Shown: piece by piece, positions 41,165 to 47,198 of the stretch
How positions within the stretch are numbered: the first letter of the stretch is position 1
Layout of the letters: every line of letters begins with the position of its first letter
Origin: Roseibium salinum
GTDB lineage: Bacteria > Pseudomonadota > Alphaproteobacteria > Rhizobiales > Stappiaceae
Assembly: GCF_026240905.1 (NCBI RefSeq)
Contig: NZ_JAPEVI010000003.1
Location: forward strand, 930,001-994,000
Length of the DNA: 64,000 bases
Direction: 5' to 3'
Translations under genes and position numbers: made by a program
Notes under the pieces: model-generated
Told to the model about the DNA's origin: nothing
Databases searched by the model: none
What the model saw: the letters and a program-made list of their open reading frames with translations, nothing else

Positions 41165-42469
41165 ATGACAGCGGCAGACACGGCAGACGTTGACCAGGAC
41201 CGGGACGCGGCAAAACCCACACGCCCCTTTTCCACCTTTGAATGGATGATCGCGGGCCGGTACCTGCGCTCACGGCGGCGCGAGACCTTCATCTCCGTGA
41301 TTGCCGGCTTCTCGTTTGCCGGCATCATGCTCGGCGTGGCGACCCTCATCATCGTCATGGCGGTGATGAACGGCTTCCGCTCGGAACTTCTCGACAAGAT
41401 ACTCGGCATCAACGGCCACATGCTCGTCCAGCCGATCGATATGCCGCTCACCGACTATGATGCTGTGGCGGGACGGCTTGAAGGCGTGCCGGATGTCGTC
41501 AGCGCCATTCCCTTTGTCGAAGGCCAGGCTCTGGTGTCCGGGCCGGCCGGCAATCTCGGCGCCCTGGTGCGCGGCCTTTATGAAAGCGATCTGCGCCGGG
41601 TGCCGCTGGTTGCCAACAATGTCCGTTCCGGCTCGCTCGACGGGTTCGGCGAAGGCGCGGGCGTTGCGATTGGCTCACGCATGGCTCAGCAGCTCGGGAT
41701 CTCCGCCGGCGACAACATCACGATCATTTCGCCGCGCGGCAGCGTTACGCCCATGGGGGTAACCCCGCGCGTGAAGGCCTATCCGGTGACTGCGATCTTC
41801 GAGATCGGCATGAGCGAATATGACAGCACATTCGTGTTCATGCCCCTGGAAGAGGCGCAGGCCTATTTCAACATGGACGACAAGGCGACGGGTATCGAAC
41901 TCTACGTGGTCGATCCCGACAATGTCGGCGTCATGAAGACCGCGATCGAGGATGCCGCGGGGCGGCCGGCCTTTGTTACCGACTGGCGGCAGCGCAACGT
42001 CACGTTCTTTTCCGCACTGGAGGTGGAACGGAACGTGATGTTCATCATTCTCACCCTGATCGTCCTGGTGGCGGCGCTGAACATAATCTCCGGCATGATC
42101 ATGCTGGTGAAGGACAAGGGCAAGGACATCGCCATTCTGCGGACCATGGGCGCGACCCGCGGGTCGATCATGCGGATCTTCCTGATCACCGGTGCAAGCA
42201 TCGGCTGCGTAGGTACGCTGGCCGGGTTCATTCTCGGCCTGATCGTCTGCCTCAACATCGAGAGCATCCGTCAGTTCGTCTCCTGGATGACCGCAACGGA
42301 GCTGTTCGATCCGACGCTCTATTTCCTGTCCAGGCTGCCGGCGGAAATCGACAACGGGGAGACCATCTCGGTCCTCGTCATGGCGCTGGCCCTGTCGCTG
42401 CTTGCAACGCTCTATCCGGCCTGGCGGGCGGCGCGGCTCGATCCCGTAGAAGCTCTGCGGTATGAGTAA
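41165..42469 (+). CDS. lolC: Lipoprotein-releasing ABC transporter permease LolC/E
   Basis: 434-residue inner-membrane permease that extracts outer-membrane lipoproteins and hands them to LolA. It has one N-terminal transmembrane helix near residues 34-58 ([27 protein letters not shown], described in parts), a large periplasmic domain and three C-terminal FtsX-type helices ending [19 protein letters not shown], the family hallmark. A single LolC/E-like protein (LolF type) is usual in alphaproteobacteria, so it probably works as a homodimer with LolD. The stop is followed by lolD after 10 bases. Confidence 0.94.
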
Positions 42470-42479
42470 GGAGGCGGAG

Positions 42480-43196
42480 ATGAACATGGCTGTCGACCCG
42501 CGCAGGGCCTCCGGAGTGACCCCGGCGGCGCTGGAACTGACCGATATCACCCGCAGCTTCGACGAGGGAAACCGCAAGCTGCACATCCTGAAAGGCGCAA
42601 ACCTGCGCATCGAAGCCGGAGAGATGGTGGCGCTTGTGGCACCCTCCGGCACCGGCAAATCGACCTTGCTGCACATTGCCGGGCTTCTGGAGCGGCCGGA
42701 TGGCGGCAACGTGTTTCTCGGCCCGGTCAATTGCTCGGATCTGTCTGACGACAAGCGCACCGCGATCCGCCGCAACGACATCGGATTCGTCTATCAGTTT
42801 CATCATCTTCTGCCGGAATTCACTGCGCTGGAGAATGTGATGATGCCGCAGATGATTCGCGGCCTGTCGAAGAAACTCGCCGCTGAGCGAGCGAATGAGC
42901 TCTTGAAGTACATGAAGCTCGAAGAAAGGGTTACGCACCGCCCGTCCGAACTGTCCGGCGGCGAGCAGCAGCGCGTGGCCATCGCCCGCGCGGTTGCCAA
43001 TGCACCGCGCATCCTGCTGCTCGACGAACCCACCGGCAATCTCGATCCGAAAACCGCCCACTACGTTTTCGACGCCCTGTCGGCCCTGGTGCGCGCTTCC
43101 GGCCTCTCCACGCTGTTTGCCACTCACAATCTTGAACTGGCGGGTCGAATGGACCGGTCGATCACCCTGCAGGACGGTCTGGTGACGCCCCTTTAG
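42480..43196 (+). CDS. lolD: Lipoprotein-releasing ABC transporter ATP-binding protein LolD
   Basis: 238-residue ATPase of the LolCDE-type complex. Walker A is APSGTGKST at 54-62, the Q-loop is [21 protein letters not shown], the ABC signature is [14 protein letters not shown], and Walker B is [12 protein letters not shown]. The start is ATG 42480, 5 bases after AAGGAGG. The frame also contains an ATG at 42462 inside the lolC end and one at 42486. It couples to lolC and ends the proS-lolC-lolD group; an SOS-regulated promoter region follows. Confidence 0.95.
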
Positions 43197-43345
43197 AGGC
43201 CATACCCCAGGTCAGACGAGAATGCCCTGATCCGCTCCGGATCTGAGGCAGTTCTCCCCGGGCGATGTGCTGCCTGGGAACAAAACAAAAACACACAGTT
43301 TTCGGCAAATTTGATATGCCGCACGGCAGCAGGAACAAAAAGGGC

Positions 43346-43374
43346 TTGTAAAAGGAACAAAAATAGAACATAAC
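43346..43374 (+). promoter_or_regulatory. LexA-controlled sigma-70 promoter
   Basis: TTGTAA (43346-43351) and CATAAC (43369-43374) are a -35/-10 pair with a 17-base spacer, each four of six to consensus. The spacer holds an SOS box, so LexA binding would block RNA polymerase. Transcription would start near 43381 toward the 32-residue ORF at 43412, with dnaE about 300 bases further on. Confidence 0.6.
43355..43369 (+). promoter_or_regulatory. LexA (SOS) box, alphaproteobacterial GAAC-N7-GAAC type
   Basis: GAAC-AAAAATA-GAAC at 43355-43369; on the other strand GTTC-TATTTTT-GTTC. Alphaproteobacterial LexA binds this direct repeat with exactly seven spacer bases, unlike the palindromic CTGT-N8-ACAG of gammaproteobacteria. 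The AT-only spacer is typical of strong sites. Confidence 0.75.
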
Positions 43375-43411
43375 TTGTAACCATACGATAGGCCAAGATT
43401 TGGAGAGTGTG

Positions 43412-43510
43412 ATGATCCATGTCGCTCGCGATTTTGCTGCTTTCAGCTCCCTGGTTTGTTTCTGCACGACGCTGATCGTCTGGGGCGATGTGCTGTTCTC
43501 CGTCAGCTGA
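43412..43510 (+). CDS. Candidate SOS-induced 32-residue membrane protein
   Basis: ATG 43412 is preceded by TTTGGAGAG with good spacing and lies 31 bases after the predicted SOS promoter start. The product has 32 residues: a short polar N-terminus (M-I-H-V-A-R-D-F) and a hydrophobic segment from about residue 9 to 31 that includes Cys16, Cys18 and Trp24, long enough to span the membrane once. No homologue is recalled by sequence. By analogy, Caulobacter SidA is a LexA-regulated inner-membrane protein of 29 residues that blocks division through FtsW. Similar arrangement here is suggestive only. It could also be a short leader for dnaE. Confidence 0.5.
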   Translation: MIHVARDFAAFSSLVCFCTTLIVWGDVLFSVS

Positions 43511-43695
43511 GAGTAGAAGCTGTTCTGCGTGGCGAGTTTCTCCAGCGATCGAGGGAGGTCTCCGACCTGTCCTTCCGGGTCTGATGAACCGGGTGCGGTA
43601 AAGAACAGCGGTGACAACCTGATTGTCGGCTCGACAGAGCTCTTCTGAGGCGCTTCACTCGAGTGCTGATTCTGGAAGATGCTAAGAGCGCCGTG

Positions 43696-46600
43696 ATGAC
43701 TGGTTCCGAGACTGAAACGTTGACCCCGCTCAGGACGCCGAACGGCGAGGGTGAGGACGGATCCGGACCGGGCTTCGTGCATCTTCGGGTCCATTCCGCA
43801 CTTTCGCTGCTGGAAGGTGCGCTGCCCATCAAGAAACTTCTGGATCTTGCCAAGGCCGACGATCAGCCGGCCCTTGCGATCGCCGATACCAACAATCTGT
43901 TTGGTGCGCAGGAATTTTCAGGCAAGGCCTGGAGCATGGGCATCCAGCCCGTCACTGCCTGTCAACTGTCGATATTTTTCAACGACGGCCTGGACAGTGG
44001 CCGCCGGAGCGAGCCTGCGCTCGCAGATGTCGTCGTGATCGCCATGACGGAAACCGGCTACGCCAACCTGATGGAGCTGACCTCCCGCGCTTTCCTCGAT
44101 ACCGATACCGGTCTCCGGCCGCATGTGTCGGCCGATTATCTCCTGTCCAAGTCGGAAGACGTTATCGTCCTGACCGGCGGTGCGCTTGGCCCGGTTGGGG
44201 CCGCTTTGCTGGCCGGGCGGAAAGATCTTGCCGGAGACCGGCTGCGGAAACTGGCGGCCGGTTTTCCCGGCCGCTGCTATGTCGAAATCCAGCGCCACGG
44301 CATGGAGGTCGAGAAGAAGACGGAAGATGCCTTCCTGGATCTTGCCTATGAACTGGGCCTGCCGCTGGTTGCCACCAACGAGGCCTTTTTTCCCAAGCGG
44401 GAGGACTACGAGGCCCATGACGCTCTGATCTGCATTGCCGAAGGCCGGGTGCTGATCGAGGATGACCGCCGACGGCTGACGCCCGAACACTATTTCAAGA
44501 GCAGGGCGGAAATGCGCGCGCTGTTCTCCGACCTGCCCGAAGCGCTGGCGTCGACCGTGGAAATCGCCCGGCGTTGCAGTTTCCGGCCGCTGCGCAGGGA
44601 GCCAATCCTGCCGCGGTTCGCCGCCACGAGTTCGGATCCGGAAGAGGCGGAACGGGCCGAGGCGGAAGAACTGAAACGCCAGGCCCGGGAGGGACTGAGG
44701 GCGCGTCTCGATGCACATGGCCTGGCGCCGGGCACTGAGGAAAAGGACTACTGGGAGCGGCTGGAATACGAAACCGGCATCATTGCAGGGATGAAGTTCC
44801 CGGGCTACTTCCTGATCGTTGCCGACTTCATCAAATGGGCGAAGACCAACGACATTCCCGTCGGACCGGGGCGAGGATCGGGCGCAGGCTCGCTGGTGGC
44901 CTGGGCGCTGACCATCACCGACCTCGATCCGATGCGCTTCTCGCTGCTGTTCGAACGCTTCCTCAATCCGGAACGCGTGTCGATGCCGGACTTCGATATC
45001 GATTTCTGCCAGAGCCGCCGCGAAGAAGTCATCCGCTATGTTCAGGAAAAATACGGCCGCAAGCAGGTGGCGCAGATCATTACGTTCGGCTCCCTTCAGG
45101 CCCGGGCCGTGCTGCGCGATGTCGGCCGTGTTCTGCAGATGCCCTACGGCCAGGTCGACCGGCTCTGCAAGCTGGTGCCCGCCAATCCGGCCAATCCCGT
45201 CACCCTCGCACAGGCCATAAGCGACGAACCGCGTCTGCGCGACGCGGCGAAGGAAGAGGAGATCGTCGAGCGGCTGCTGCGCATCGCACAGAAGCTGGAG
45301 GGGCTCTACCGTCACGCGTCGACCCATGCGGCCGGCGTGGTGATCGGCGACCGGCCGCTGGAACAGCTGGTGCCGCTCTATCGAGATCCGCGCTCAGACA
45401 TGCCGGTGGCGCAGTTCAACATGAAGATGGTCGAAGATGCCGGCCTGGTGAAGTTCGACTTCCTCGGTCTCAAGACGCTCACTGTGATCGACACGGCCGT
45501 CAAGCTCATAGAGCGGCGTGGGATCAAGGTCGATGTGGCAGGCCTGCCGATCGAAGACGAAAAGACCTACCAGCTTTTGGCGCGCGGCGAGACCTTCGGC
45601 GTGTTCCAGTTGGAAAGCCAGGGCATGCGCCGGGCGATTGCCGGCATGAAGCCGGACCGGTTCGAGGACATCATTGCGCTTGTCGCGCTTTACCGGCCTG
45701 GCCCGATGGAGAACATCCCGGTCTACAACGCCGTGAAACATGGCGAAATGGAACCCGACTGCCTGCACCCGCTGCTTGAGCCCATCCTGATGGAGACGAA
45801 CGGCATTATCGTCTATCAGGAACAGGTGATGCAGATCGCGCAGGTGCTGTCCGGCTATTCGCTCGGGGAAGCAGACCTGCTGCGCCGCGCAATGGGCAAG
45901 AAGATCGCGTCCGAAATGGAGGTCCAGCGAGCCCGCTTCGTCGACGGCGCGGTCGAGCGCGGCATCAACAAGACCCAGGCGGGGACGATTTTCGATCTCG
46001 TGGCGAAATTTGCCAATTACGGCTTCAACAAATCCCACGCCGCCGCCTATGCCCTGGTCTCCTATCACACCGCATGGCTCAAGGCGAACCATCCGGTGGA
46101 GTTCCTGGCCGCGTCCATGACGCTCGATGTCGGTAATACCGACAAGCTGGGGGACTTCCGTCAGGAAGCCCGCCGGATGGGGATTGAAATCGTCCCGCCG
46201 TCGATCAACCGGTCGCACGTCTATTTCGATGTCGCCGACGGCAAGATTCTCTACGCCATGGGGGCGATCAAAGGTGTGGGAGAGCACGCGGTCGAACACA
46301 TTGTCGAGGTCCGGGGCGACAGGCCGTTCAAGAGTCTTGGCGATTTTGCCCGGCGTATTTCGCCCAAGGCGTTGAACAAAAGAACGCTCGAAAATCTCGT
46401 CACCGCCGGGGCTTTCGATGAACTGGAGCCGAACCGCGCGCGCGTCTTTGAGGGGCTCGACCGGATCATGGGCCTGGCGCAGCGTACGGAAGAAAACAGG
46501 GCGCTCGGCCAGAACGAACTGTTCGGTGGCAGTGACAGCGAAGAGCCGTTGCAGCTCGACGATGTGCCCGCCTGGAAGGATGAGGAAAAGCTGCAGCGGG

Positions 46601-47198
46601 AACATTCGGCCATCGGCTTCTATCTCTCCGCCCATCCGATCGATGCCTATGCGGCCATCCTGGAAAAGATGCGGGCGCAGCCCTGGGCGCAATTTGCCGA
46701 GGCGGTGAAAAGGGGGCGTCGCACGGACGGCTGGCGGGTACCGTCGTCTCCATGCAGGAGCGCAAGACAAAATCCGGCAGCCGTATGGGCATTGCCCGCC
46801 TCTCCGATGCGACCGGCCAGTTCGAAGCCCTGTTGTTCCGAGAAAAACTGGAGCAATACCGGGATGTCTTGCAGACGGGACGCTCCGTTGTCCTGTTGGT
46901 GGGCGCGGACATGCGCGATGACGAACCTTCGCTCCGTATCGAAAAGGTGGATCCGATTGAAGAGGAGGCCGCCCGGCTGCAGAAGAGCATGCGGGTCTTC
47001 GTCCGCGACGAACGCCCGATCCGGAGCCTTGCCAAACATCTTCAGGCGAGGGGCGAGGGCGATGTGACGGTGATTGTGCTTCTGGAAAACGGAACCCGGG
47101 AAGTGGAAGTGAAACTGCCCGGACGCTTCCGCCTGTCGCCGGAGATCGCTGGCGCGCTCAAGGCCGTGCCCGGAGTGACCGACGTTCAGGTGGCATGA
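43696..47198 (+). CDS. dnaE: DNA polymerase III subunit alpha, with an apparent frameshift near the C-terminus
   Basis: Replicative polymerase subunit, about 1167 residues once corrected. The PHP domain begins FVHLRVHSALSLLEGALPIKKL; the polymerase domain has GPGRGSGAGSLVAW, PDFDIDFCQ (catalytic aspartates) and the QEQVMQIAQVLSGYSLGEADLLRRAMGKK region. It is DnaE1-type, with the full C-terminus, not the ImuC/DnaE2 error-prone form. At the G5 run 46712-46716 the frame shifts; adding one G restores the OB-fold and tau-binding C-terminus (RLAGTVVSMQERKTKSG onward) to TGA 47198. Without it the protein would end at 47067 with a scrambled tail. The start ATG 43696 has AAGAG upstream; GTG 43663 is an alternative. 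An essential gene, so a sequence error is likely. Confidence 0.95.

Follow-up and report, generated by a model that had tools for sequence, protein, structure and literature searches.

SidA is a 29-residue inner-membrane protein of Caulobacter that is induced in the SOS response and inhibits division by acting on FtsW, whereas the target of SulA is FtsZ (PMC4211646). FtsW is the reported target of YneA too, and SosA and SidA have likewise been modelled on it; in these AlphaFold 3 models of 2026, which are of low confidence, SidA lies on TM7 of FtsW, on the opposite side from the site of YneA, ChiZ and SosA (PMC13396833). In the accessible portions of the literature searched (PMC4211646, PMC12700426, PMC13384398, PMC10769358, PMC9578287, PMC13396833 and PMC10957082), there is no mention of a SidA homolog outside Caulobacter or of a small ORF under LexA control ahead of dnaE. 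Here we analyzed a 64-kb stretch of DNA (the window), in which a preliminary description had pointed to a 32-codon ORF upstream of dnaE as a possible functional analogue of SidA.

RESULTS

A small ORF between lolD and dnaE

The genes lolD and dnaE flank a LexA-type box and a 32-codon ORF in the window, in the order lolD, box, ORF, dnaE, all on the plus strand (Table 1). The ORF and its GGAGAG site were found as had been claimed, with a gap of 6 nt between GGAG (43402-43405) and the ATG. The predicted peptide indeed has a single hydrophobic segment, with a top 17-residue Kyte-Doolittle mean of 1.98. The window peptide and three relatives matched no curated family of Pfam-A or NCBIfam up to an E value of 10, and a 40-residue family member (locus L056) used as the query of a protein search retrieved three proteins, none of which has a name. 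A profile search of the window's own genome at E <= 0.01 gave no second family member, and that genome has one ftsW match above the cut-off.

Table 1. Features of the window at and around the 32-codon ORF
Feature	Position	Strand	Basis or remark
lolD, upstream neighbour	42462..43196	+	best NCBIfam match TIGR02211 LolD
Distal LexA-like box, GAAC-N7-AAAC (7/8 core bases)	43278..43292	+	77 nt upstream of main box
Isolated GAAC half-site	43333..43336	+	22 nt upstream of main box
-35-like TTGTAA	43346..43351	+	TTG conserved; consensus TTGCAA in 43 aligned same-genus loci
Main LexA-type operator (putative), GAACAAAAATAGAAC	43355..43369	+	exact GAAC-N7-GAAC between -35 and -10; conserved in family
-10-like CATAAC	43369..43374	+	17 nt past TTGTAA; CATA kept in same-genus alignment
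Ribosome-binding site (predicted), GGAGAG	43402..43407	+	sequence; genus alignment consensus TTGGAGG
sidA ortholog candidate, 32 codons, MIHVARDFAAFSSLVCFCTTLIVWGDVLFSVS	43412..43510	+	family HMM, codon constraint, profile match
dnaE (DNA polymerase III alpha), downstream neighbour	43663..47198	+	NF004226 match

The score of the upstream neighbour against the LolD model, 255.7 bits, is below the curated NCBIfam cut-off of 307.75. Downstream, NF004226 scored 1386.8 bits on 43663-46700, and dnaE starts at 43663 or alternatively at 43696. The reading frame of dnaE was seen to shift at about 46.65 to 46.67 kb, with one tblastn match running in frame 3 as far as about 46674 and a second one beginning in frame 2 at about 46647; in an essential gene, this change of frame (46647-46674) is perhaps a sequencing error.

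Main box, promoter and LexA

The GAAC-N7-GAAC box that had been described upstream of the ORF was confirmed in the sequence and proved to be conserved in the family. The TTGTAA and CATAAC hexamers of the promoter claimed around it are present at the 17-nt spacing, but together they match the sigma-70 consensus at only 8/12 positions, which is below the limit of our consensus scan, and the scan reported no promoter. A TTG begins 9 nt ahead of the box in 86/120 loci.

By its count alone, GAACN7GAAC is not enriched in the window, with 2 occurrences against 2.27 expected from shuffles, and the box stands above chance because of its conservation in the family. Genome-wide, the pattern was found 242 times, compared with 127 for the reversed pattern, and an A/T-rich form of the box, GAACAWWNNNNGAACAW, was found 13 times, compared with 0 for its reversal. 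The genome has a single lexA match above the curated cut-off (C3:999086-999787, minus strand); two GAACN7GAAC boxes (C3:999845-999859 and 999873-999887) lie a short distance ahead of it on that strand. Among the 13 A/T-rich boxes, one lies ahead of a gene of the impB/mucB/samB family, which by our reading would be ImuB-like, and one lies ahead of an MmcB-like DNA-repair gene. Three further ORFs behind such boxes gave one aminotransferase and two without match in Pfam, so that not every A/T-rich box need be a functional site. Two neighbouring similar genes of about 160 codons each (MADFEDITGWREELAAFEATDEGRAFF...; G000:C3:179259-179928, L367 and L368) start 42 to 43 nt behind the start of each one's own LexA-like box.

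Conservation of the ORF and the box

We read 149 loci upstream of dnaE, 83 from the window's family (83/87 genomes) and 66 from other families of its order (66 of 188 genomes with a match, from a draw of 199 genomes). Every family locus carries the ORF upstream of dnaE with the box, which is exact in 75 loci and has at most one mismatch in all 83. In the other families of the order the ORF was present in 40/66 loci, 34 of which have an exact box.

A family HMM grown from 57 seeds matched 123/149 dnaE-upstream loci of the order at E < 1e-3. Among the 122 matched loci in which the box could be tested, it was exact in 109 and had at most one mismatch in 121, counts that lean upwards because the seeds had been chosen for motif and box. 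In the same 122 loci, a control stretch 200 nt farther upstream gave 3 exact boxes and 8 with at most one mismatch. The reversed pattern gave no exact match, and tolerance of one mismatch is a weak criterion, as the reversed pattern satisfied it in 16/122 loci.

The box and the ORF were also counted independently of the HMM, by looking for an exact box followed by a hydrophobic ATG ORF of 25 to 50 amino acids. In the order, family included, 111/147 loci had this arrangement (reverse strand, 0/147; shuffles, 0.000). The frame and the box, whose conservation in relatives had been put forward as a check, are kept in most loci of this wider set as well as in the family. Two class sets gave 8/28 and 10/60 loci (shuffles, 0.007 and 0.000), each including one genome of the window's order that was positive, and the named loci described below gave 46/78 (shuffles, 0.000); the reverse strand gave 0 in every set. 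Loci with less than 250 nt upstream (two of the order, one of the class and one named locus) were left out of this count, as were one window copy and a named locus that lacked the DnaE N-terminus.

The 26/149 order loci without an HMM match mostly lack an exact box too. In four HMM-negative loci (L101, L149, L157 and L181), a small hydrophobic ORF preceded by a Shine-Dalgarno-like site still follows an exact box. Within one family (f24), two loci of genus g30 (L163 and L378) carry the ORF upstream of dnaE, and four others (L177, L379, L380 and L381, of which three belong to g68 and one to g99) have neither the ORF nor an exact box there, a difference that may reflect loss or relocation of the ORF. 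A LolD-like ABC signature was found upstream on the same strand in 80/114 HMM-positive order loci with enough sequence. A profile search of 385 class genomes, which we judged insensitive, matched 6, of which 3 belong to the window's order. The 38-residue peptide of a Stappia locus (L358) is identical to those of four loci of the window's family (L076, L077, L080 and L124), which makes Stappiaceae the most likely identity of this family.

The ORF codons are under purifying selection

Synonymous and nonsynonymous changes were compared, as had been proposed for this ORF, on 61 distinct 32-codon sequences, and constraint was found. Mean heterozygosity was 0.33, 0.19 and 0.57 at codon positions 1, 2 and 3, respectively. 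The median dN/dS was 0.23 (interquartile range, 0.14 to 0.41; 457 usable pairs), and pooled pN/pS was 0.39, a value blurred because synonymous sites are almost saturated (pooled pS, 0.68). A randomly drawn subset of 30 sequences out of the 61 gave a pN/pS of 0.42, compared with 100 column shuffles that averaged 0.89 and did not fall below 0.67. Residues A, F and W are nearly invariant across 27 family members.

Further sites upstream of the main box

A second LexA-like site with at most one mismatch is present exactly 77 nt ahead of the main box in 33/45 loci of the window's genus, and at 76 nt in 3 more. The GAAC half-site 22 nt upstream is present at exactly this distance in 45/45 same-genus loci. 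Elsewhere it was found in 3/3 loci of genus g19, 1/13 of g22 and 2/38 of other families of the order, with none listed for genera g18, g20, g21 and g23. The GAAC-type sites at -77, -22, 0 and +11 (43278-43369) are spaced by multiples of 11 nt, 11 nt being the distance from one half of the box to the other. These fixed spacings may be due in part to shared descent within one genus. They would also be consistent with cooperative binding of LexA at multiple GAAC sites.

Outside the window's genus, words of the TTAACC, TTTACC, GTTAAC or CTAACC type, which we take to be CtrA-like, occur 20 to 75 nt ahead of the box in 29/75 loci, compared with 0/75 just after the ORF and 4/75 after shuffling. In the window's genus such words were found in 4/45 loci, the same as in shuffles. 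Examples with TTAACC or TTTACC 41 to 67 nt upstream of the box are L116, L119, L125, L137 and L139. Cell-cycle control of sidA through these words is possible.

Relationship to the Caulobacter loci

In one genome of our class survey, two boxes are followed by a 29-codon ORF directly ahead of dnaE. The named-genome loci are the best 80 of 590 relatives in a scan of named genomes with this DnaE, which is closest to that of Brevundimonas (94%); the 80 include Caulobacter, Phenylobacterium, Brevundimonas, Asticcacaulis, Maricaulis, Stappia, Bradyrhizobium and Phreatobacter. In 9/9 Caulobacter-titled loci among these best 80, a 29-codon ORF lies directly upstream of dnaE, with a box that is exact in four and has one mismatch in five; one of the nine ORFs begins with GTG. 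The motif scan gave no ORF upstream of dnaE in Asticcacaulis benevestitus (L318). Rfam CC2171 was dropped as a Caulobacter marker, as it was not specific (35/153 genomes matched).

Five of the nine Caulobacter-titled loci have a nucleoside hydrolase motif on the minus strand directly ahead of the ORF, and the motif search did not find it in the other four. In Caulobacter sp. B11 the upstream hydrolase belongs to PF01156, and an ABC ATPase lies farther out. The next long plus-strand ORF upstream is LolD-like by eye, like that of the window, in one locus each of Asticcacaulis, Maricaulis, Phreatobacter and Stappia, and is something other than LolD-like in L285, L309 and L363. In the published annotation, sidA is CCNA_02004 (PMC10769358), CCNA_02005 is an inosine-uridine nucleoside hydrolase (PMC3667746) and dnaE is CC1926 in the CB15 numbering (PMC1839093, table). 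The two sets of recN tags, CC1983 and ccna_02062, give an offset of 79 that would not hold near dnaE, and we infer from the tags that sidA lies next to dnaE in NA1000. The published locus tags fit the identification of the Caulobacter 29-codon ORF as sidA, and the Caulobacter ORFs are taken as putative SidA on the grounds of length, box and locus order.

We then compared profiles built from 27 order ORFs, 23 Caulobacteraceae ORFs, through which SidA was represented, and 8 bridging ORFs from Maricaulis-, Robiginitomaculum- and Parvularcula-type loci. The order and Caulobacteraceae profiles aligned with a score of 23.35 over 18 columns, methionine on methionine (probability, 82.8%), whereas 200 column shuffles averaged 8.3 and reached 15.8 at most; where a Caulobacteraceae locus has no exact box, its ORF had been picked by a motif filter. 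All 18 columns are N-terminal, and the C-terminal halves differ. The bridging ORFs scored 38.18 over 29 columns against the order set (shuffled maximum, 14.1 in 200 shuffles) and 25.19 against the Caulobacteraceae, the latter without a shuffled control.

DISCUSSION

The place next to dnaE, the operator type, the size and the in-register profile similarity support the candidate SidA analogue of the preliminary description, its function being a prediction from sequence. In view of these four features, 'functional analogue' appears too cautious a term. We consider it very likely that the ORF is a SidA ortholog, that is, a LexA-repressed, damage-induced and membrane-inserted peptide that would act on FtsW. 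The firmer part of this proposal is a real coding gene linked to LexA, and FtsW as the target is the weaker part.

For the window ORF we infer LexA binding, translation, membrane insertion and a divisome target, as follows. LexA bound to the box between the -35 and -10 elements would hold the promoter shut. Upon DNA damage, RecA-stimulated cleavage of LexA would open the promoter, and the 32-residue peptide would be made and would enter the inner membrane as a single helix. Its proposed homology with Caulobacter SidA suggests that it may then act on the late divisome (FtsW, along with FtsI and FtsN) and hold constriction back until repair is finished.

The same features might instead describe an SOS-induced membrane-active peptide of the TisB/DinQ type that slows growth by disturbing the membrane, without binding the divisome. 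Such peptides share the size class, the LexA-type box and the single hydrophobic segment with the window ORF, and DinQ is an SOS-regulated toxic single-transmembrane peptide of E. coli (PMC3567139). However, the window ORF shares its dnaE-adjacent place with the Caulobacter ORFs and has an in-register profile similarity to them, and the near-invariant A, F and W residues suggest a specific contact. In addition, the search for an antisense RNA, an Rfam scan of 42400-44500 at gathering scores, gave 0 matches. We regard a peptide of this type as improbable.

The ORF might also be a leader that gives dnaE a damage-inducible promoter, with a peptide devoid of action in trans; it precedes dnaE on the strand that both share, and a terminator scan of 43190-43760 returned no intrinsic terminator. 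Against this stand the amino-acid constraint, the residue pattern kept across genera, and the inhibition of division by Caulobacter sidA alone (PMC4211646), and we give the leader slightly less credit still than a membrane-disturbing peptide. A chance ORF next to a chance box, to which the shuffle-level count of GAACN7GAAC in the window might point, was rejected on the conservation counts and the coding constraint and is barely conceivable.

Taken together with a SidA ortholog in the window, the surveys lead us to a broader proposal, which we hold to be likely as a whole. Far from being peculiar to Caulobacter, SidA would be an ancestral LexA-controlled division brake of the Alphaproteobacteria. 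It would have been retained directly ahead of dnaE across most of the window's order, in the Caulobacteraceae and in several further families, and overlooked because of its length of about 30 codons. In the window's genus, its promoter would be a compound LexA operator in which GAAC-type sites recur at 11-nt steps (-77, -66, -22, 0 and +11), an arrangement that would give cooperative and sharply switching repression.

A candidate SOS division inhibitor can now be named for Rhizobiales-type bacteria, as one small gene. If the proposal is true, the coupling of damage to division via FtsW is old in Alphaproteobacteria. The gene is below most annotation cut-offs and was found via its neighbour and operator instead of its length. 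The kind of system was already known, and its breadth and its absence from annotation seem to be new.

Comparison with known systems

DidA of C. crescentus is, as we propose for the window ORF, a small single-helix division inhibitor induced by damage, but it has 71 residues and is SOS independent, being induced by DriD (PMC4211646). SulA of E. coli, YneA of Bacillus and SosA of Staphylococcus are likewise SOS-induced division inhibitors, SulA and YneA being unrelated to SidA (PMC4211646). With TisB and DinQ the window ORF has in common that these are tiny hydrophobic SOS-induced peptides. TisB is an E. coli toxin with an antisense RNA, and we know of no gene neighbourhood that either peptide shares with the window ORF. 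DinQ differs in being an E. coli toxin with an antisense RNA (PMC3567139).

The closest likeness is to SidA, judged by the Caulobacter-titled loci, which agree with the window ORF in a length of about 30 residues, a single hydrophobic segment, a LexA-type box upstream and a place next to dnaE. The N-terminal motif R-[DE]-x-x-[AS]-[LF]-x-S-[VL]-x-x-F is common to the window ORF and these loci. In the C-terminal half the window's genus has V-W-G-D-V-L, whereas Caulobacter has V-W-M-x-C-x-V-A, and the neighbour of the ORF is lolD in the window but a nucleoside hydrolase gene in 5/9 Caulobacter-titled loci.
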